DNA from: Actinomycetota bacterium
Lineage (GTDB): Bacteria > Actinomycetota > Humimicrobiia > Humimicrobiales > Humimicrobiaceae
Direction of reading: 5' to 3'
DNA length: 44,859 bases
Assembly: GCA_026392215.1 (NCBI GenBank)
Contig: JAPLCN010000154.1
Location: 1-44,859 of the forward strand
The position numbers and the translations under genes were made by a program. The notes under the pieces are model-generated. The model saw nothing but the letters and a program-made list of their open reading frames with translations. It ran no database searches and was not told the DNA's origin. Below, in pieces: positions 25,915 through 35,330 of the stretch; position 1 is the stretch's first letter; every line of letters begins with the position of its first letter.

Positions 25915-26973
25915 CTAACAAAGCGGACATTTTTCGCTGCACATGGAGCAGAGCAGATGGAGATGATTACAAAAGTAGATGTTTGTAATACTCTTTCCGC
26001 AACCTTGGCAAACAAGAGGATCCAATGCCTTGGTAACAGGGTTATAGATCAAGGAAACATTTTCCCGAGTCCTTCTAATAAAGATGTTATAAAGGACTTT
26101 AACGGCTGGCGTATTGATCAGCATGACCGCACAGGGCTCTACATTTATCTTAATGCTGTATTTTTTAAACAGATCGTCCCTTTTTCTTTCGAGTTCATCA
26201 GGTAGAAGGTCTATTTTTTCACGCCTTTCTTTTATCAACTCCTCTGAAAGACGAGGCCTTTCAAGGTTTTTTTCCATTTCTTTTTCCAGGGCATGATAAT
26301 ATTCTTCAAGATTTGCCACATCCCTCCTGAAGCGCCTTGTCATGGTTTCATGGAAGGAATTTAATTCGTCCATCAGGATCCCTTTTGATTGCTCTTTAAT
26401 ACATTTCATAACCCTTTCCAATTGCCCATCTTTCCAGATGGGCTTTTGAAGAGGAATAAAATTTTTTCCAGCGGCAGAGAACAACTCTGCCATGTGGGGG
26501 ATATAGGCCCCTGTTTCCAGATTAAAAACAAGACTCACTAGACCCTGCTTTTGCTCATCGCTTTGAGCCGTATACCGGCAGGTCAGGAAGATGTATGCGG
26601 TGTTAATTTTTGCCCGGCTCTCCGTTTTGCCCACCGATTTGGAAAAAAAGAACTGCTCCTGGATCAGACTGTCAAAACCCTCTCTTTTTAGATAGTCAAA
26701 CTGAAGCTGGCAGGCCAACAAAGGTACATCTCCACAAACTGCATCTACCATTTTTTCGAGCAGGGAGGAGCCGTAATTGATAGAATAAACCCCTTCTGAT
26801 TCAGGGTCTGATCCGGTATTTATATTAATATGCTCAGAGGTCCCGAAAACCTCTGACAAATTTTCAGGCAGGAGAGCTTCAAATCCATGCTCATTTCTTT
26901 CCAGCACTGCCCCCTGATTCTCGAGAAATCTACAGGCAAATTCTTCCAGTTCTTGATTGGATTTAGAGTTCAT
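25915..26973 (-). CDS. Unrecognised protein with C-terminal RING-like zinc finger
   Basis: A 352-residue protein whose main body I do not recognise. Residues 1-200 are a mixed alpha/beta region. Residues 205-290 are a helical, charged, likely coiled-coil region (YYHALEKEMEKNLERPRLSE). The last 31 residues hold C-x2-C-x9-C-x3-H-x2-C-x2-C-x3-C-x2-C (Cys322, 325, 335, His339, Cys342, 345, 349, 352), the order of ligands of a C3HC4 RING or treble-clef finger, with one spacer a residue short of the usual minimum. The ATG at 26973 overlaps the end of the helicase gene by 11 bases and has GGTGA upstream; an ATG at 27000 is less likely. It is the last gene of coiled-coil, SNF2 helicase, finger protein. 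Translational coupling implies a shared complex. Function unknown. Confidence 0.75.
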   Translation of the reverse strand: MNSKSNQELEEFACRFLENQGAVLERNEHGFEALLPENLSEVFGTSEHININTGSDPESEGVYSINYGSSLLEKMVDAVCGDVPLLACQLQFDYLKREGFDSLIQEQFFFSKSVGKTESRAKINTAYIFLTCRYTAQSDEQKQGLVSLVFNLETGAYIPHMAELFSAAGKNFIPLQKPIWKDGQLERVMKCIKEQSKGILMDELNSFHETMTRRFRRDVANLEEYYHALEKEMEKNLERPRLSEELIKERREKIDLLPDELERKRDDLFKKYSIKINVEPCAVMLINTPAVKVLYNIFIRRTRENVSLIYNPVTKALDPLVCQGCGKSITNIYFCNHLHLLCSMCSEKCPLC

Positions 26974-29305
26974 AATTTTCACCAAAAAGTTTTTTATCAA
27001 GCTCTTTGGACTTTTGATAGCTGGTTTTGGCCCTCATTAACCTGCTTCCCAGTTGTCCAAAGGCTGTTTTTATTTCTTCTTCAGATCTTGAATTCACCCA
27101 GATGTCATAAACCGTTTCAGAAAAGTCCTTCTCCTCCTTGATCCGCCCCAATATCATGTCAATCTCTCCAATCACCATCTCAAACATGTTGATTTTCCTA
27201 TCCAATATCTCAAGAATATAATCCTCCACACTTCCTGCAGCGCACAGGTTGTAAATCATAACCTCTTGTTCCTGCCCGATACGGTGTATCCGGCCGATTC
27301 GCTGTTCGATCTTCATTGGGTTCCAGGGGAGATCATAATTGAGCATCTGATGGCAGAATTGGAGGTTGCGGCCTTCACCGCCAATTTCTGTGGTGAGCAG
27401 AATATCCTTGTCCTCCTTGAAGCTCTGAATTTGTTCATCCTTGCTGCGGTTATCCATCTTACCATGAAATAGTGAATGGCTGATCCCTTTGCTTGCCAGA
27501 AATTCAGACACATGATCCAGTGTGCCATGGTACTTGACAAAGAGGATCATTTTGCCTGGATAGGATCTAATAAGCTTAAAAAGCAGCCTGTCTTTGCTGG
27601 TAGTATGTATAGAGCAGCAAAGATTGTTTATGGCATAGAGCTTCTTTTTGTGTTCGAGGAGCATATCTCGCCTTGCAAGAATTCGGGAAAGGGTTAATCT
27701 CACTGCGCGAGGTGAAGAACCCGCCTCAGCCAGGAGATTTTTTAGCAGTAATGTATGACCTGAGCCATTGGTCTCATTTATATCTTTTATCAGGGTAGTG
27801 ATTTTTTGATACAGCTCGATTTCCAAAGAGTCTGGGACCACCTTTATGGTCTGAGCAAACCGGGGAGGGATATCAATCTTTGCAAAGGCCCTGGTATTTC
27901 GTACCATGACCTGTCCAAGAAGGTCTTTGAGGTGGCTGCGGTTTCGGGGATCAGTGGGATCTCCGCGGGTCATGAATTTTTCGCGAAAGTCGGAGGCTGT
28001 CTTTAACTGACCTGGTTTGAGAAGGGTAACGAGATTGTAAAGCTCCATCAGATTGTTTTCCACAGGTGTCGCCGTAAGGAGAAGTAAAAACCTTTTTTTC
28101 AAGGCATTGATAAGTTTCCAGTTTAACGTGTTTCGATCCTTTAGGTGGTGTGCCTCATCAACTATGACCATGTCATATTCCCTTTGGGTGACTATGGGAA
28201 AATTCTTCTTTGACTTAGCAAGATTGATGGATGCAAGAATAAAGTCTTCTTTCCAGAAGGACTGCTCCCGGGTGTGGTAACCAGGATCATCTGTGGATGG
28301 AAAGTTAAGTCCGAATTTGACCTTCAGTTCCTCCTTCCATTGGCTTACAAGTGGTGTTGGTGTTAGTATAAGGGCGCTTTTTACCATACCCCTCTGAATA
28401 TATTCCTTAAGTACCATAAGGGCCTCTATAGTCTTGCCCAGTCCTACCTCATCCGCCAACAAGGCCCGGCCATGAAAGGTCTTCAAGATTTTTCTGGTAG
28501 TCTCTTCCTGGAACCAGAATGATCGAACGTTTTTCAGACTATTAAAACAGATAAGACTTTCAAAGGTCTCTTTAAAACGGATTCGATGTCCTTCTAGCGT
28601 AAGTTGGTAGTTCTCCAGAGAGGTAAGGTGCCCATCTACCAGGGATTCTTTGAAGGCCACTGGGTCCACCTGAATGTATATAGGGATTTCTGGGAGGGGG
28701 CTTTTATCTACATGATCTCCAGGGACATCGGCGTTTTCGGGATAAGCAACGATTTCTTTGGGTTCTTTTTGCCTATTTTCATTCTTGGACGTTTCAATAA
28801 GCGAGTTTATGGCCGCCAGCTTTTGTGTTGTTTCCAACTGGGCTTGGCAATGTTTCTGGCTTTTAATAAGGGATTCTCTCAGGGCCTTCTTTCCGCGTGC
28901 CTTTATCTTTGAAATGCTCTTTAAAGTTTCTTGAATAACACATAGTGCCTGTTTGTATTTACCATTCTCCTCCAGCAGCTGGCATAAAAGCGGCATTTGG
29001 CCAGATTTTATAAGTCCATGATTGTAAAGGCCCAAAAGCGCATTGAGTTCTATGTCGGACCTTTTCATCAAATATCCAAGACGGCCCATTTCCTGAAGGC
29101 ATTCTTCATTCTTTGGATCCAAACGCAGAACCTTTTCCAGGTAAAAGAGCGCCTTATCCAACTGGCCCTTATCCTCAAACCCGAGGGCTTTATAAAAAAG
29201 AGGCTCAGTCTTTTCCCGAAGAAGAGCCCTGACCGGTCTCTCTCGGCGTTCTTTCTGTTTAATCTTCCTCTTGGCCTTTTTCTTTTCCTCTTTTGTCCTG
29301 GGCAT
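26963..29305 (-). CDS. TPR and SNF2/RapA-like ATPase (DEAH helicase)
   Basis: A 780-residue Swi2/Snf2 translocase. The N-terminus is very basic (KKKAKRKIKQKERRER), followed by a TPR-like helical repeat at about 33-75 (ALFYLEKVLRLDPKNEECL) and further helices to about 200. The motor has DEVGLGKT (285-292), DEAH (383-386), LLTATPVENN and, near 640-680, GGEGRNL ... QRIGRIHRIGQ. All ATPase motifs are intact. The closest known group is bacterial RapA/HepA-type SNF2 proteins that remodel nucleic acid-protein complexes; several SNF2 proteins also serve in phage defence. GAGG precedes the ATG. It follows the coiled-coil gene by 24 bases and overlaps the finger-protein gene. Bases are visibly richer in G+C than in core genes. 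Confidence 0.9.
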   Translation of the reverse strand: MPRTKEEKKKAKRKIKQKERRERPVRALLREKTEPLFYKALGFEDKGQLDKALFYLEKVLRLDPKNEECLQEMGRLGYLMKRSDIELNALLGLYNHGLIKSGQMPLLCQLLEENGKYKQALCVIQETLKSISKIKARGKKALRESLIKSQKHCQAQLETTQKLAAINSLIETSKNENRQKEPKEIVAYPENADVPGDHVDKSPLPEIPIYIQVDPVAFKESLVDGHLTSLENYQLTLEGHRIRFKETFESLICFNSLKNVRSFWFQEETTRKILKTFHGRALLADEVGLGKTIEALMVLKEYIQRGMVKSALILTPTPLVSQWKEELKVKFGLNFPSTDDPGYHTREQSFWKEDFILASINLAKSKKNFPIVTQREYDMVIVDEAHHLKDRNTLNWKLINALKKRFLLLLTATPVENNLMELYNLVTLLKPGQLKTASDFREKFMTRGDPTDPRNRSHLKDLLGQVMVRNTRAFAKIDIPPRFAQTIKVVPDSLEIELYQKITTLIKDINETNGSGHTLLLKNLLAEAGSSPRAVRLTLSRILARRDMLLEHKKKLYAINNLCCSIHTTSKDRLLFKLIRSYPGKMILFVKYHGTLDHVSEFLASKGISHSLFHGKMDNRSKDEQIQSFKEDKDILLTTEIGGEGRNLQFCHQMLNYDLPWNPMKIEQRIGRIHRIGQEQEVMIYNLCAAGSVEDYILEILDRKINMFEMVIGEIDMILGRIKEEKDFSETVYDIWVNSRSEEEIKTAFGQLGSRLMRAKTSYQKSKELDKKLFGENYEL

Positions 29306-29329
29306 ATACTGACCTCACTAAACGCTTAA

Positions 29330-30397
29330 TTATTTCTCCTGGGACTGCCTTCTGGTCTGTTCTGAAGCCAGTTGCTGCAGACTTGCAAATGATTTAAGGT
29401 TTGATGATCCCTCAACGGACTTAACGGCGATATCCTGAACCTTTTGATAGGATTTCTCCAATTGTCCTGAAAGGTTAGCAATCTGCCCGCTCTGCTCTTT
29501 TACAGTTTTTTCAAGAGACTCGATTCGAGTTTTGAGCACGTTTCGTTCGCCTTCAAATTCTTTTCTTATTAATTCCTCTCTATTTTTTGCTTCAAGCGTA
29601 ATTCTTTCTGATGTCTCCTTAATTGTTTTGTTGACAGCTTCTTTGATTTCATCGGGAAAGGCAATAACCTTCTTTTGTAATTCCGCTAATTCTTCTTCCC
29701 TTTCGGAGACTGCTTTTTCTCTCCCAGTAAGCTCTTTTTCCATATACTCTTTTTTCAACTGAATCTCTTTTTCTGTTTTTGCCTTCTCATCTTCAAACTT
29801 ATCTTTTGCCAACCATTGTTCCCGCTTAAAGGTATAGCCATATTCTTCCTTTTCTCTTTCTCGTCTTTTTGCCTCTGCTGCATCTCTTTCTTTGATCTCT
29901 GCTTCAAGCCCTTTTTTCTCTTTTCCCCACTCCTCACGAGTTGTGCTGATTTCCCGGTTCAATTCTTCCTTTCGGGCAGTCATTTCCAATTCAAATTCCT
30001 GGCGCTTCTTATTCTGCGCTTCTATTAATGCTGCAAGTGTCTCTGCTGATCTTTCTATCTCATATAATTCTTTAAGCTCCTCATCTTTAATTTCAATAGC
30101 TTTCTGAATTTGATTGAATTTACTGACCTCTTCCTCCAGTCCATCGGAAATACTGGTTAGTCTTTTTCCTATTTCCAGCTTCAGATTGCCGATCTCTTTA
30201 ACAACCCCCTCTGAAGATAAGGTCTCTGCCACTTCCACAACCTCTCTCTTCTTTTTTTCTTCAATCTTTTTTTCTGGTTTCAGTTCAGCTTCACTCTTCT
30301 CTTGCAATTGTTTCAGAAGCGCATGATAAGCATCAAGCATCTCCTTTTTCGTCTTTGACATAGATAGTTCCCTGACCATTATTTTTTCCTCTGCCAT
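29330..30397 (-). CDS. Long coiled-coil protein, first gene of helicase operon
   Basis: A 355-residue, strongly charged protein (many Glu, Lys, Arg). Apart from the first 30 residues and a Ser/Gln-rich tail it reads as near-continuous alpha-helix with heptad-like spacing, for example KERDAAEAKRREREKEEYGY and EREEELAELQKKV, with a possible break at FPDEIKEAV. No enzymatic motif, signal peptide or membrane helix. AAAGGAG lies five bases before the ATG. It could be a scaffold, a sensor rod or an SMC-like arm, but without an ATPase of its own. Its tight linkage to the SNF2 gene suggests a partner role. Family not recognised. Confidence 0.75.
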   Translation of the reverse strand: MAEEKIMVRELSMSKTKKEMLDAYHALLKQLQEKSEAELKPEKKIEEKKKREVVEVAETLSSEGVVKEIGNLKLEIGKRLTSISDGLEEEVSKFNQIQKAIEIKDEELKELYEIERSAETLAALIEAQNKKRQEFELEMTARKEELNREISTTREEWGKEKKGLEAEIKERDAAEAKRREREKEEYGYTFKREQWLAKDKFEDEKAKTEKEIQLKKEYMEKELTGREKAVSEREEELAELQKKVIAFPDEIKEAVNKTIKETSERITLEAKNREELIRKEFEGERNVLKTRIESLEKTVKEQSGQIANLSGQLEKSYQKVQDIAVKSVEGSSNLKSFASLQQLASEQTRRQSQEK

Positions 30398-30581: not shown

Positions 30582-30911
30582 CTACTCGTTTAATAATAAG
30601 TCAATATTTTCTAATATTTCTTTCAAAATTTCTTCTGATGTTTTTTCAATGAAAGCTGCATTCCTGGATTTCCAATCAAGACTTCTAATTTGATCGGATA
30701 AAATTACACCTTCAATTATACTATTTATTCTGACTTCAAAAGGGTAGTCCTTTATTTTACTTGTGATGGGACAAATTATTGCTAAATTTGATTTTTGATT
30801 ATATTCTTTTTTAGAAAGAACAATTCCTGGTCTTCTTCCTTTTTGTTCATGGCCTTTTTGAGAATCAAATTCCAACCAGATAATATCTCCACGATCAGGA
30901 ATGTATGACAT
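30582..30911 (-). CDS. mazF: MazF/PemK-family toxin endoribonuclease
   Basis: A 109-residue toxin that should cut mRNA. Family marks are GDIIWLEFDSQKGHEQKGRRP with the catalytic Arg region, GIVLSKKEYN, ICPITSK (Thr50/Ser51) and RSLDWKSRNA. The ATG directly follows the TAA of the antitoxin gene, with AGGAG inside the antitoxin's end, giving coupled translation and higher antitoxin yield. No damage seen. Confidence 0.93.
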   Translation of the reverse strand: MSYIPDRGDIIWLEFDSQKGHEQKGRRPGIVLSKKEYNQKSNLAIICPITSKIKDYPFEVRINSIIEGVILSDQIRSLDWKSRNAAFIEKTSEEILKEILENIDLLLNE

Positions 30912-31151
30912 TTACCACTCCTCTTTCCCATGGGGAGATCCAAAATCTATTTCACCATGTTGATTCTCATTAGTAATTAATTGAATTAGGTCATTTAAAG
31001 ATTTCTTTTTTTTTGCTGGTCTAATAATTATTTCATTTTCTTTTCTTTGAATATCGACAATGCTTCCATCAAGTAAATGCAATTCTTTTGCATAAACACT
31101 TGGTATTCTAAGTCCTAAACTGTTTCCCCATTTCTGAACACTGGTTTGCAT
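30912..31151 (-). CDS. mazE: MazE-family (AbrB-fold) antitoxin
   Basis: A 79-residue AbrB-fold DNA-binding antitoxin. The start QKWGNSLGLRIPS is diagnostic of MazE, followed by the basic beta-strand region VDIQRKENEIIIRP and an acidic tail that would block MazF. AGGAG lies five bases before the ATG. It heads the two-gene operon and probably represses it with MazF through the inverted repeat overlapping the promoter. Confidence 0.93.
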   Translation of the reverse strand: MQTSVQKWGNSLGLRIPSVYAKELHLLDGSIVDIQRKENEIIIRPAKKKKSLNDLIQLITNENQHGEIDFGSPHGKEEW

Positions 31152-31175
31152 ATCATCTCCTGTTGCAATGTTTAA

Positions 31176-31215
31176 TGTTTAGTCATAGTATAAACATAAA
31201 TTGAGGAAATATCAA
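31176..31215 (-). promoter_or_regulatory. mazEF promoter with operator-like repeat
   Basis: On the minus strand -35 TTGATA (31215-31210), 17-base spacer, -10 TATACT (31192-31187). An inverted repeat TGTTTA/TAAACA (31196-31191 and 31181-31176) overlaps the -10, with a further TAAACA copy at 31174-31169, suited to MazE-type autoregulation. Confidence 0.55.
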
Positions 31216-31422
31216 GGGCGTTATTATGTATAAATGCGTTATTCTGCAACTTACCCTATTTTACCTAAAATAATAGTAAAAGGAATTTAAGTGGCCCTCC
31301 AGAATCGATTTAAAGACATGACAAGCAACTGTCTATACAAAATATTTATTGATAATCAAAACAGGAAGGAGAAAAAAATGGGTTAAAATATAAAAATACA
31401 AAATTAAAGTAATGTTACATTT

Positions 31423-32196
31423 TTAAAGACACGCATGATAATTATCATCGACGAGATTGACCCTTTTCAGCAGCTCCTCGTCTTTTAAAAGCTCCATTAC
31501 AAGCATATCTGCCGCTATATTATGGTCTTCGTCGAACAAAACCGCCCTGTCGGAAACTTCTGGCACAAGATTAAGGTTGTGCGTTGCAAAAATCAGAGTT
31601 TTACCCGCGTCTCCGAGAGTATGCAGCAACCTTAACAGCCAACTTTGTGATCTTGGATCAAGGCTGCTTGTGGGTTCGTCCAGAATCAGCACATCAGGGT
31701 TTAAAATCAGCACACTTGCGATCGCAACCTTCTTTTTCTCCCCGCTACTTAGTTTATACGGCGTTTTTTCAAGCAGATGTTCTATGTCAAGCATTTGGGC
31801 CGTTTCGTTTATACGCTGCTTCACCAGCTCCTGTGAAAGCCCAAACTGGAGCGGACCAAAGGCAAGCTCCTCATACACTGTACTGCAAAAAAGCTGAATA
31901 TCTGAATCCTGAAAAATAAAACCGATCTTACGGTGATAAACTTTTGAAAATTTATCACTGAAATTTTTCTGCTCTATTTTATCCCCGAAAGCAGTAAATT
32001 CTCCGCTTTGCGGAAAAATCAGCCCGGATAGAATTTTGAGCAAAGTGGTTTTTCCGCAGCCGTTTGCGCCTAAAATGCTTATCCTCTCACCTTCAAAGAT
32101 TTCAAGGCTTAAATCATTAAGCACCGGCTCCTTTTCAGAATAGGCAAACGCTATACTGTCCAATTTAAAGAGCGTGTTTTTTTGTTCAGTAATCAA
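31423..32196 (-). CDS. nikO: ECF transporter ATPase, nickel type (CbiO/NikO)
   Basis: A 257-residue ABC ATPase with Walker A GANGCGKTT (43-51), signature LSSGEKKKVAIASVL, Walker B VLILDEPTSSLDP and the H-loop ATHNLNL, close to CbiO/NikO. It powers uptake through NikQ and NikMN. The TTG start overlaps the stop of nikQ by four bases (TTGA). Last gene of the nikMN-nikQ-nikO operon. Confidence 0.9.
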   Translation of the reverse strand: MITEQKNTLFKLDSIAFAYSEKEPVLNDLSLEIFEGERISILGANGCGKTTLLKILSGLIFPQSGEFTAFGDKIEQKNFSDKFSKVYHRKIGFIFQDSDIQLFCSTVYEELAFGPLQFGLSQELVKQRINETAQMLDIEHLLEKTPYKLSSGEKKKVAIASVLILNPDVLILDEPTSSLDPRSQSWLLRLLHTLGDAGKTLIFATHNLNLVPEVSDRAVLFDEDHNIAADMLVMELLKDEELLKRVNLVDDNYHACL

Positions 32197-33128
32197 AACA
32201 GATGTTCCCCTGCAATCAGTATTAATACGATGATAACATTATTTATTATAAAAAAAATGTCAGTGCCTTTAACTTTAAATTTATCACAACTGACCGGCCT
32301 GCCGGTAAAACCACGACAGCGCATGGCGTCGTAAATCTCTTCGCTCAAATAATGGGATTTGATGAACATATGGGCAACGCTGTGCCCCATGAACCTGCGG
32401 TTGTCGCTGGTGTCAAGCTTGCCGACTGTTCTGAGATATCTTGCCTCCATCATATCACACGCCATGGCCGAGATCACGAAAATATAGCGGTAAGCCATAT
32501 TTAAAACTGATATGAAAAGTAGCGGCACATGCATTAAAGCAAGAGCGCTCGTAATCTTAGACCATCTTGTCGTCAGCAACAGCAGAAATCCGAAAGAAAG
32601 CGATATGCCTGCGCGCAATGCGATCCGCAGCGCGACTTCTATTCCGTTCATGGAAAAATAGAGACCACTTTGAAGGCCCATGACTCCGGGCCTTAATACA
32701 GTGACAAGCGGGCTGCCTTTAACAAACAAGCTTGTGACACCGGGAATAGAAAAAACAAGCACCAGCACAGGGATATAAAGCCACGACCTTCTGATATAGT
32801 CCTTCAGTTCAAGCCCGGACAATTTCGCGTATAGAAGCGGAATCACAGCCAAAATCAAAAGTACGACTATATTTGAGGTAAAGCTGGAAAGCACCATGTA
32901 GAAAATGAGGGTTAATAGCTTAACCCTCGGATCGATACTTTGCAAAAACAGCGGCTTCCCCGCAAACTTCTCACAGAATAACTCATTTTCAAACACTTCT
33001 GAAATATGCTTGAGAGTTTTTCTTATGAAATGTGTCTTTGAAGCGGATGCTTCCATATCATTATATAAGTTTTTTTCAAGTAGCCAAGCCGGGATATCAG
33101 AATAAATGTTGTTTCTCTGTTCAGTCAA
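32193..33128 (-). CDS. nikQ: ECF transporter coupling protein, nickel type (CbiQ/NikQ)
   Basis: A 311-residue T component with about five to six membrane helices. The two coupling motifs that touch the ATPases are present: MMEARYLRT and MRCRGFTGRP. About 60 soluble residues precede the first helix, longer than in typical CbiQ. The start is TTG, two bases after the nikMN stop, and AGGTAA lies upstream. Works with the NikO ATPase dimer and the NikMN substrate unit in the cytoplasmic membrane. Confidence 0.9.
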   Translation of the reverse strand: MTEQRNNIYSDIPAWLLEKNLYNDMEASASKTHFIRKTLKHISEVFENELFCEKFAGKPLFLQSIDPRVKLLTLIFYMVLSSFTSNIVVLLILAVIPLLYAKLSGLELKDYIRRSWLYIPVLVLVFSIPGVTSLFVKGSPLVTVLRPGVMGLQSGLYFSMNGIEVALRIALRAGISLSFGFLLLLTTRWSKITSALALMHVPLLFISVLNMAYRYIFVISAMACDMMEARYLRTVGKLDTSDNRRFMGHSVAHMFIKSHYLSEEIYDAMRCRGFTGRPVSCDKFKVKGTDIFFIINNVIIVLILIAGEHLF

Positions 33129-33130
33129 CT

Positions 33131-34165
33131 TTACTTGTTACCTTTCTGCGCTCTCAAAATCAATTTTGAAGTGAGTATAATCAGCCCTGATATCAGCACG
33201 ATGCCGACAACAGCTGACAATATATATCCAAGCGTAGTACCGACCCGGCTGACGCCAAGCGCCGGCAGTGAGTAATCAGGTATTAATGCGTGCCATTTGT
33301 CGGCCATCGCGGCAAAGCCTTTTGGTATGTAGCCGAGTTTATCTTTGATTTCGTCGGTGCCCCATTCGCCCCATGCGGTGCCAGTCGCTAGCAAGCCAAT
33401 TGGCGTGAGTACCACCAAAACAGCAAGAGAAATCAAAATAGCCTTATATTTTTTAAAGGACAGCACAGCCGGTTCATCAGCCAGAATTGGCTGATTTTGG
33501 CCAAAAAGCTGCGGGGCAAATTTAATTATGTAAGCAATTGCAGCCGTAGTAACGATACCTTCAAGCGGTCCTGCAAACACTGTGTGGGCTAGCGCCATGG
33601 AGGGAATTGAAACGGACAGCGGATACGGGCTGTAAAGCGGTGTGCCGTTTGCCGCTTTGAAAAGTAGCGGCTGAATGCCAAGCTCAAACCCAGCGAAAAT
33701 GGCCGCTATGTTAAGCCCAACGTAGCTGCCGATAAATGTGCCTACTAAGTTTCTGCTGCTTCCAAGTTTGGATTTTCCGGCAATCAATTTATAAAGATAA
33801 TAGCCTGTAAACGGCATAACCACAGCCATATTCAGACAGTTTATGCCAAAAGAGATGATACCGCCATCCCCAAAAACAAGTGCCTGAATGAGTAATGCCA
33901 TAGAAACCGAGATTGTCGCCGCCCATGGGCCCAAAAGAATTGCAATGAAAACCGCCCCCACAGCATGCCCCGAGCTTCCTCCGGCTACCGGCACGTTAAA
34001 CATCATGATCAAGAAAGAAAATGCCGCGCAAAGCGCAAGTGCAGGAATTCTTTTGCTGCTTAAGGTCTTTTTCACCTTTCTGAAAGCCACGGCCCAAACC
34101 GGCACCATACCGGCTAAAACCGGGATTGTTGTCTGCAGACTCAAATATCCATCAGGAATATGCAT
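33131..34165 (-). CDS. nikM: Nickel/cobalt ECF substrate-binding protein, CbiM-PDGLE (NikMN) fusion
   Basis: A 344-residue fused substrate component. The N-terminal MHIPDGYLS, whose free amino end and His2 bind the metal, is intact, as is the downstream GGSSGHAVGA. CbiM/NikM covers about 1-215; the rest is the PDGLE-type NikN part (LTPIGLLATGTAWGEWG and LPDYSLPALG) with two helices. The operator upstream has the form of a nickel-responsive NikR site, which favours nickel over cobalt. ATG start with AAAAGG upstream. High G+C (34 of 60 bases at 33241-33300) compared with core genes suggests acquisition. Confidence 0.92.
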   Translation of the reverse strand: MHIPDGYLSLQTTIPVLAGMVPVWAVAFRKVKKTLSSKRIPALALCAAFSFLIMMFNVPVAGGSSGHAVGAVFIAILLGPWAATISVSMALLIQALVFGDGGIISFGINCLNMAVVMPFTGYYLYKLIAGKSKLGSSRNLVGTFIGSYVGLNIAAIFAGFELGIQPLLFKAANGTPLYSPYPLSVSIPSMALAHTVFAGPLEGIVTTAAIAYIIKFAPQLFGQNQPILADEPAVLSFKKYKAILISLAVLVVLTPIGLLATGTAWGEWGTDEIKDKLGYIPKGFAAMADKWHALIPDYSLPALGVSRVGTTLGYILSAVVGIVLISGLIILTSKLILRAQKGNK

Positions 34166-34193
34166 TGTTTTCCTTTTTTTATAATATTGATAA

Positions 34194-34224
34194 TCGTGTT
34201 ATCTTTTTATAATTCATAACACGA
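34194..34224 (-). promoter_or_regulatory. NikR-type operator
   Basis: A perfect inverted repeat TCGTGTTAT (34194-34202) / ATAACACGA (34216-34224) with a 13-base spacer. The core GTGTTAT-N13-ATAACAC corresponds to the GTGTTAC-N13/14-GTAACAC NikR signal known from non-enterobacterial genomes. It begins just downstream of the -10 box and covers the transcription start, so bound NikR would block the promoter when nickel is plentiful. Confidence 0.75.
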
Positions 34225-34226
34225 AT

Positions 34227-34255
34227 ATATTAGCATTTAACATAAAACACTGCAA
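34227..34255 (-). promoter_or_regulatory. nikMNQO promoter
   Basis: On the minus strand -35 TTGCAG (34255-34250), a 17-base spacer and -10 TAATAT (34232-34227), with the start predicted near 34220, inside the operator. Confidence 0.6.
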
Positions 34256-34352
34256 TAATTAAAGTTATAGAAATAATTAAAAATTTTAATTAGTGAAAGA
34301 ATAAGATGGAGTTCGAATTAAATTTTCATATAAAGAGGGTTAAAAAGCTATC

Positions 34353-35330
34353 TTAAGGCATCAGAATATCCTGATTTATTTTTACGATCTTATCAGGATA
34401 ACTTTTTCTTTTAATATATTCGTTAATATTTTCACCATTAATTTCAAAATCCGGAGCTACTTCTGATAAAGGCATCATTACAAAATTTCTTTCAGATAAT
34501 CGCGGGTGAGGCACTTTTAATATATCTGAATTTATACATATATCTTCAATATATAATATGTCTATATCTATAATTCTTGGGCCATTTTTTACAGGCTGAC
34601 TTTCTCTGCCCATTTCATATTCTATATTTTTTACATAGCCAAGCACAGTGAAAGGATTGGCTGAACTTTTTACTGCAGCCTTGATAGCCAGGTTATAAAA
34701 ATTATCCTGACCTTTAAAATACATAGGCTCTGTTTCGTATATAGAAGAAACTTCCAGAATCTTAAAAATATCCGATTTGAAAATAAGATATAAAGCCTTC
34801 TTAATATTTTCAAGCTTGTTGCCTTTGTTAGTCCCTATAGAAAGATAAACAATCCTATAACCTTTTTTAGAAACCTTCTTAGTGCCGGAAAATAAGCCGG
34901 AATCTTTAATTTTTTCAAACTTAATATTATCCTGGTTTTTGCCCTCAAATTCATTATCTGGAGATTTTTTATTTACCGCCAGCTTGTAAGTAACGCCTAC
35001 GCTATCAAGCTTTTCCTTAATGGGAGGATTTATCTTTTCAACCCTGACTTTCACATTACTTATTAGCGGAGACAACTTTGAAATTCTGACAGATATTTCC
35101 TCTGCAAGGGTTTCAAGCAAATCAAACTTATTTTGTGAGTTGATTTCTTTTATTATTTCAATAGCATCAGAATAATTTACAGTTTCAGATAAATTATCAC
35201 TTCCGGAAAAACTGTCTTTATTTATCTTTATTTCAATATTATAAACAAAATACTGGCCTTCCTGTTTTTCTTCAGGCTTTACTCCGTGATATCCGTATAA
35301 ACTTAAATTTTTAACAAATATTTTAAACAT
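34353..35330 (-). CDS. folBK: Bifunctional dihydroneopterin aldolase/HPPK (FolB-FolK)
   Basis: A 325-residue fusion catalysing two steps of folate synthesis: aldol cleavage of dihydroneopterin, then pyrophosphorylation of hydroxymethyl-dihydropterin. FolB covers 1-118 (NLSLYGYHGVKPEEKQEGQ, then NPPIKEKLDSVGV). A charged linker of about 35 residues follows. FolK covers about 157-325 with LSIGTNKGNKLENI, NGPRIIDIDILY and PHPRLSERNFVMMPL, the HPPK signature. Last gene of tilS-hpt-ftsH-folE-folP-folBK, 32 bases after folP. Confidence 0.95.
   Translation of the reverse strand: MFKIFVKNLSLYGYHGVKPEEKQEGQYFVYNIEIKINKDSFSGSDNLSETVNYSDAIEIIKEINSQNKFDLLETLAEEISVRISKLSPLISNVKVRVEKINPPIKEKLDSVGVTYKLAVNKKSPDNEFEGKNQDNIKFEKIKDSGLFSGTKKVSKKGYRIVYLSIGTNKGNKLENIKKALYLIFKSDIFKILEVSSIYETEPMYFKGQDNFYNLAIKAAVKSSANPFTVLGYVKNIEYEMGRESQPVKNGPRIIDIDILYIEDICINSDILKVPHPRLSERNFVMMPLSEVAPDFEINGENINEYIKRKSYPDKIVKINQDILMP

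Follow-up and report, generated by a model that had tools for sequence, protein, structure and literature searches.

A putatively native NikR operator in front of a nickel-transporter operon of clostridial type in a Humimicrobiaceae genome

When a transporter operon that seems to have come from elsewhere stands behind the binding site of a metal-sensing repressor, the question arises of whether the switch arrived together with the pump or was already there to receive it. This question is posed by a locus in a stretch of 44,859 nucleotides (nt) from a member of the Humimicrobiaceae, Actinomycetota (contig JAPLCN010000154.1 of assembly GCA_026392215.1, positions 1 to 44,859; hereafter the window, which lies on contig C92 in our labels), where a palindrome of the NikR type precedes the genes of a predicted nickel transporter of the energy-coupling factor (ECF) class. 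The window genome, G000, is a draft in 207 contigs rated 96.5% complete, and it was compared with a family set of 35 genomes, its congeners being G001, G002, G003 and G004 (G-numbers are genomes, L-numbers single extracted loci, C-numbers contigs). In our reading, which we hold to be quite probable on the strength of these comparisons, the palindrome is the operator of the organism's own NikR, inherited within a native leader, while behind it a nik(MN)QO of clostridial origin would have taken the place of the native coding region. The elements concerned are the following:

34353 to 35330, minus strand: folBK, the native left-hand anchor of the slot ftsH-folE-folP-folBK.
34166 to 34352, minus strand: leader from the folBK stop to the nikM start, holding the promoter, the operator and a possible ribosome-binding site, AAGGAA (34170 to 34175); probably native.
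34250 to 34255, minus strand: weak −35-like TTGCAG, seen by eye 17 nt upstream of TAATAT.
34227 to 34235, minus strand: extended −10 element TGCTAATAT, whose end lies 4 nt before the operator, conserved as TGnTAATAT in G001, G003, G004 and G024.
34196 to 34222, minus strand: putative NikR operator GTGTTAT-N13-ATAACAC, read on this strand as GTGTTATGAATTATAAAAAGATAACAC, half-sites at 34216 to 34222 and 34196 to 34202 (consensus in PMC545781).
33131 to 34165, minus strand: nikM-nikN fusion (CbiM and PDGLE domain matches), predicted ECF nickel S-component, of clostridial origin by its tree.
32193 to 33128, minus strand: nikQ, ECF T-component.
31423 to 32196, minus strand: nikO, ECF ATPase.

The palindrome has no mismatch, is the sole exact copy in the window and in the genome, and lies, as the initial annotation had placed it, between the −10 element and the first nik gene, which starts at 34165. 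Its half-sites fit GTGTTAY/RTAACAC with 13–14 nt spacing. The NikR consensus of delta-proteobacteria is given as GTGTTAC-N13/14-GTAACAC, and the Desulfovibrio form as GTGTTAt-N13-GTAACAC (PMC545781); the window site agrees with these in half-site, spacing, inverted orientation and place before a nik ECF operon, and the name nik(MN)QO used here for the fused form is the one applied there to Geobacter. It differs in belonging to another lineage, in the seventh letter of each half-site, which is T instead of C, and in being the single exact site of its genome, with none before a hydrogenase. By its letters it is the published delta-proteobacterial variant of the operator, to which NikR would be expected to bind. 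No wider set of sites emerged: the window holds four further matches, at 3 mismatches, which do not exceed chance (5 in total versus 2.58 expected, a number reached by 13 of 100 shuffles), and a genome-wide search at up to 2 mismatches gave 9 sites versus 9 for a reversed-pattern control, reversed half-sites not being part of that search.

Across the family, which was scanned with the exact pattern GTGTTAY-N13/14-RTAACAC and its reversal as control, the site occurs in 22 of the 35 genomes, once in each, and the control in one. Absence of the repeat from related nik operons had been named beforehand as one of two findings that would refute the initial annotation, the other being the lack of a nikR gene; instead, each of the 19 genomes with a NikM match carries one exact site, directly upstream of NikM in 18 of them; in an early subset the count was 17 of 17 family NikM loci versus none of 13 loci from outside the family. 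Among the 16 genomes lacking NikM, 13 also lack the site and three have it before apparent uptake genes.

A NikR protein encoded outside the window had also been predicted, and the gene is there, on contig C153 of G000 (E 7.5e-28), its product scoring above the NCBIfam NikR equivalog cut-off (171 bits versus 105) and matching the solved NikR 2bj1 over residues 5–137 (7.6e-35). The C-terminal NikR_C domain is found at E 8.7e-28, and the N-terminal RHH_1 domain at 19.9 bits, slightly below its cut-off of 20.5. In an alignment of the 26 NikR loci extracted out of 28 (the rows of G014 and G031 were left out), the protein shows the RFGVS strand and a His/His/His/Cys set in YDHH and QHIHLDHHNC, which we take, by the positions assumed for E. 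coli NikR, to be the high-affinity nickel ligands. Since the gene order around it, a radical SAM-type protein, a methyltransferase, nikR and an endonuclease-III-type gene (names from sequence), is common to G000, G001 and G004, this nikR is native. [NiFe] hydrogenases and carbon monoxide dehydrogenase (CODH) need nickel, and G000 encodes the large subunits of two [NiFe] hydrogenases and, above its NCBIfam cut-off, the catalytic subunit of a CODH. The suggestion that nickel enzymes would be found with the same motif upstream was therefore borne out for the enzymes and not for the motif, which is absent in its exact form before the hydrogenases and CODH of this genome, where there is a single exact site.

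The pump, for its part, tells a different history. All four ECF components are present in three genes, M (CbiM), N (PDGLE), Q (CbiQ) and O (ABC), and the earlier description of nikMNQO as richer in guanine plus cytosine (G+C) than the folate genes stands as regards composition (nikM 0.479, nikQ 0.426 and nikO 0.422, versus folBK 0.304, folP 0.359 and folE 0.384; at third codon positions 0.44–0.49 versus 0.26–0.32), although M and N form one protein and the genes are three. The window NikM has its best PDB match in 4m58/4m5b, and it resembles that NikM-type ECF nickel transporter in its MHIPDGYL start, in the conserved His67 region and in the set of CbiM, PDGLE, CbiQ and ATPase; the Met1, His2 and His67 columns are invariant in our NikM alignment, and presumably form the metal site, as in the 4m58 structure. 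Composition alone does not single out nik, as there is a second block of raised G+C at 25915–30397 (0.37–0.49 at third positions), which encodes an SNF2 helicase along with two proteins lacking any Pfam match and was possibly also acquired. Directly behind nikO, at 30582–31151, lies a toxin-antitoxin pair of the mazEF type (PemK and MazE domains), low in G+C.

Outside the family, relatives of NikM were taken as the best 80 loci listed from a genome collection holding at least that number, and the window protein is 45–73% identical to them over the best segment. The closest among those listed are an Oscillospiraceae metagenome-assembled genome (73%) and a Ruminococcaceae isolate (69%), followed by other Clostridia (57–61%), and the order M, Q, O is conserved in four of the five closest (L126–L129), the short contig of the fifth, L125, giving matches to M and Q only. 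In a maximum-likelihood tree of 54 rows, including 36 of these 80 loci (G005 and G025 were left out), the window NikM is sister to the Oscillospiraceae sequence (100/98), inside Clostridia, and the 14 native rows of the family form one clade, supported at 100/100 with the outside row G041 and at 99/97 without it. The other family members in which this type was found, G002 and G021, belong to another clade, also mostly clostridial (100/99), so that their pump looks like a separate acquisition. A search of G000 found one NikM and no native one, and in 30901–31500, behind nikO, only chance-level matches to remnants of native nik genes. The comparisons, with a tree that covers NikM, support a foreign transporter, derived from a bacterium of the Clostridia type; the lateral acquisition first proposed for the nickel transporter is upheld by this tree, and is incomplete as a reading in that the operator would belong to the native leader and would not have been acquired.

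That the leader is native is argued by its place and by its letters. In G001, G003, G004 and G024 the native order is folBK, nikM, nikN, nikQ, nikO, coaX, dus, with low-G+C genes; in G000 folBK is followed by the foreign operon, and coaX-dus lies on another contig, C126. The 45 nt upstream of the operator agree with those of G003 at 33 positions and of G004 at 31, values reached by none of 2000 shuffles, whereas the agreement with G002 (17 positions) and G021 (15) is at chance level. The extended −10 TGnTAATAT ends 4–6 nt before the operator in G000, G001, G003, G004 and G024; G002 and G021 are without it and have instead a TTGACA beginning 18–19 nt before the operator. A generic sigma-70 consensus scan did not list the nik promoter, including its TTGCAG, and the promoter is called because its extended −10 is conserved in relatives. 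The DNA upstream of coaX on C126 in turn matches the native nikO-coaX spacer of G003 (score 106, shuffle maximum 56) and of G004 (81, maximum 64). Since the leader matches those of two congeners and has the extended −10 of the native operons, the operator would be native as well, and not acquired with the transporter.

If we accept this, promoter, operator and ribosome-binding site would have been inherited from the lineage's own nikMNQO behind folBK, and the native coding region would have been swapped for the clostridial nik(MN)QO, joined on its left side at the nikM start codon or right beside it; the native coding region would be gone and its two flanks would survive, the left one, with promoter and operator, driving the foreign operon. 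When nickel is plentiful, nickel-bound NikR would hold both GTGTTAT half-sites and shut off nik(MN)QO: transcription is expected to start just behind the extended −10, within the stretch that the half-sites cover, so that polymerase would be blocked; when nickel is scarce, NikR would be released and the pump would feed the [NiFe] hydrogenases and CODH. Repression is proposed here because of the position of the operator and the known biology of NikR. Foreign genes at an ancestral locus from which the native copy is not found are known from xenologous gene displacement in situ and mosaic operons, which the present case resembles in both respects; it differs in that the break separates the control region from the coding region as a whole, and in that the chromosome has also been rearranged on the far side.

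Several points weigh against this reading. The leader of G001 agrees at 12 of 45 positions in register, and is similar only with a shift (gapped p 0.041), that of G024 is marginal (22 of 45, p 0.037), and the stretch from the operator to the ATG matches, among congeners, only G003 (p 0.005). On the far side, the coaX spacer on C126 matches neither G001 nor G024. Behind nikO the DNA shows no similarity to any native spacer, so the right junction was not located. folBK was matched in 30 family genomes, some of these loci being cut by a contig end, and NikM follows it within 1500 nt in only 7; the slot is thus ancestral at the level of the genus rather than demonstrably of the family. Eight family genomes have NikR and no exact site, the same eight also lacking a NikM match, and three (G003, G006 and G019) have the site and no NikR that could be found, in assemblies 77–87% complete. 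Finally, the NCBIfam name for the window NikM is ‘cobalt transporter CbiM’, and the genome is a draft in many contigs.

Among other explanations, the one that survives best, although we consider it improbable, is that operator and promoter came with the foreign operon as one cassette. Such an arrangement is perhaps what is seen in G002 and G021, which carry operator, nikR and nik(MN)QO together, and outside the family the exact operator does precede a NikMN in Rummeliibacillus (L162), one of 79 loci listed once L164, identical to the G002 contig, had been set aside, with a site of one mismatch in L169. However, the five closest clostridial relatives among those listed have no operator within 350 nt, even at 2 mismatches, and the window leader resembles the native leaders of its own genus, extended −10 included, and not the TTGACA type of G002 and G021. 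Somewhat less probable still would be an assembly chimera, in which the native folBK leader and a foreign operon were wrongly put together on C92: the many contigs of the draft, and the other half of the native slot lying on another of them, could be so explained, but the join keeps start codon, ribosome-binding site and reading order, the low-G+C mazEF genes resume on the far side, and this is the sole NikM found in a nearly complete genome.

It is unlikelier again that the palindrome is read by another regulator or that the pump serves cobalt. The database name just mentioned points that way, and metal specificity is not certain from sequence; against it, the operator has the published NikR consensus form (PMC545781), and no riboswitch was found in the window, where Rfam at gathering scores gave only two tRNAs. 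Moreover, nikR, whole or partial, adjoins the operator-nikM unit in G002, G012, G013, G021, G026 and G027. Nickel as the cargo is the expectation given by the operator and nikR. A native operon that diverged in place without transfer would fit the same slot and the similar leader, but is very hard to reconcile with a NikM placed inside Clostridia, far from the 14 native rows, and with the fused MN and raised G+C.

Within the one genus, then, the nickel module exists in three states: the native pump; the swapped pump under the native switch, in G000; and a separate cassette beside a broken nikR. The last is G002, where the slot is empty, coaX lying directly behind folBK, where nikR, operator and nik(MN)QO stand together on another contig, and where the native nikR locus (L122:466-640) is a broken remnant without the DNA-binding part.

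There remains the control that the clostridial operon would have had before its transfer. The leaders of the five closest clostridial operons, among the loci listed, carry small hairpins with an AYGAA loop. Of the 80 listed leaders, taken as the 200 nt before NikM, 17 have at least one such hairpin (2.9 expected from letter shuffles) and 8 at least two (0.08 expected); tandem pairs with AYGRA loops followed by T's occur in 10, with 5 more elsewhere in 842 kilobases on both strands, and five scrambled-loop controls gave 0, 1, 0, 0 and 0 in leaders. Loci in which the tandem was noted, often overlapping a terminator and standing before pumps of the nickel/cobalt type, FmdE genes and an [FeFe] hydrogenase in Clostridia, are:

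L125:605-664, L127:5875-5937, L128:5882-5952 and L135:5841-5911: tandem CAYGAAG hairpins.
L191:233-314 (Syntrophobacteraceae), L250 near 1506, L272, L274 and others: tandem CAYGAAG hairpins.

In an alignment of 12 sequences (11 distinct), C, A, G, A, A and G of the first loop region are invariant, as is most of the second. Over 10 pairs, 89.7% of cells can pair, where shuffles give 70.7%; the covariation score reaches 0.633, versus 0.278 in shuffles (none of 500) and at most 0.164 when slid; and pairs changed on both sides number 7, a value reached by 86 of 500 shuffles. The sequences were preselected for hairpins, which biases these figures in favour of structure. In several leaders, judged by eye, a terminator shares sequence with the second hairpin.

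An RNA model built on these leaders matched 7 of 295 genomes in the order of G062 (E ≤0.05), two of them training genomes; G268 has an element before nikMN, G103 has three before nikMN and a further one, weak (E 0.014), before a monomeric [FeFe] hydrogenase, and the matches in G127, G129 and G271 were set aside, not being before such genes. A scan of the wider class gave matches in 19 of 381 genomes (E ≤0.01), and after removal of G067, a training genome, and of G478, with nine matches in an array like clustered regularly interspaced short palindromic repeats, there were 20 elements in 17 genomes: 12 stand before CbiM, one of these at a distance of 518 nt; an ECF S-component follows 4 of them, FmdE 2 and a methyltransferase one, and behind one, in G389, nothing was found. 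Most genomes of order and class scanned gave no match. Besides nik operons, the element stands before further CbiM pumps, genes of the FmdE type, unassigned ECF S-components and, once, an [FeFe] hydrogenase.

Scanned with Rfam 15 at its cut-offs, 14 loci gave no match to the element; with relaxed scores the L125 leader gave rli61 (E 0.9; 17.9 bits, cut-off 50) and BtsR1 (E 1), whereas rli61 did not recur for the leaders of L135, L128 and L171, whose matches were to other families and well short of the cut-offs. None of the papers searched names rli61. The literature searched gave nothing recognisable as an AYGAA element, a negative that does not establish it as new. ANTAR proteins were considered as readers of the hairpins, and were found in 8 of 10 genomes and not in two drafts that have the element. 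The ANTAR target consists of two small hairpins, the second overlapping the terminator, with a hexaloop having A1 and G4 (PMC3369931); the leaders share the first two traits, but have an AYGAA pentaloop closed by C-G (CAYGAAG), so the loop rule fails and by its loop sequence the element is not the ANTAR motif. The hairpins are a candidate RNA switch. Our tentative proposal, which we would rather doubt than affirm as a whole, is that the clostridial nik(MN)QO is governed by a two-hairpin CAYGAAG antitermination RNA, perhaps a nickel riboswitch, and that on transfer this leader would have been discarded and the coding region fused, at the start codon, to the native NikR promoter-operator.

Some loci met on the way deserve mention. 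Behind the RNA element there are ECF S-components of PF12822 at L252:842-1381, L261:931-1455, L262:821-1369 and L263:911-1447; an internal motif, PMHIPVLL or one like it, occurs in three, and the four are possible new metal S-components. In Desulfosporosinus, where nikM has the tandem hairpins, a cobalamin riboswitch (L187:2295-2485) lies behind nikM and before further open reading frames, hinting at separate control of pump parts. Within the Humimicrobiaceae, the three genomes with a site and no NikM (G017, G019 and G029) have the operator before FmdE-type genes followed by a solute-binding protein, the gene in G017 being recognised by its likeness to that of G029; at L209, L214 and L225 the FmdE-type genes behind the family operator are followed by binding proteins of the SBP_bac_5 or Peripla_BP_2 type, which suggests nickel uptake systems of other kinds. 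In G005 (L059:2128-5739) the operator is followed by two open reading frames, a distant CbiM and nikQ- and nikO-like genes, a layout resembling nikKLMQO.

In summary, the initial annotation holds, both in what it observed and in how this was read. The locus is a new case of known things, a NikR operator, an ECF pump and displacement in place, and the leader RNA of the clostridial relatives, which may sense nickel, is the more novel lead. For the family, the single NikR site before other kinds of genes helps to assign FmdE-linked transporters to nickel. For the organism, the switch and the pump of one operon would have different histories, providing a natural case in which a metal pump was replaced and its switch kept, in a genus that offers three states of the nickel module for comparison.

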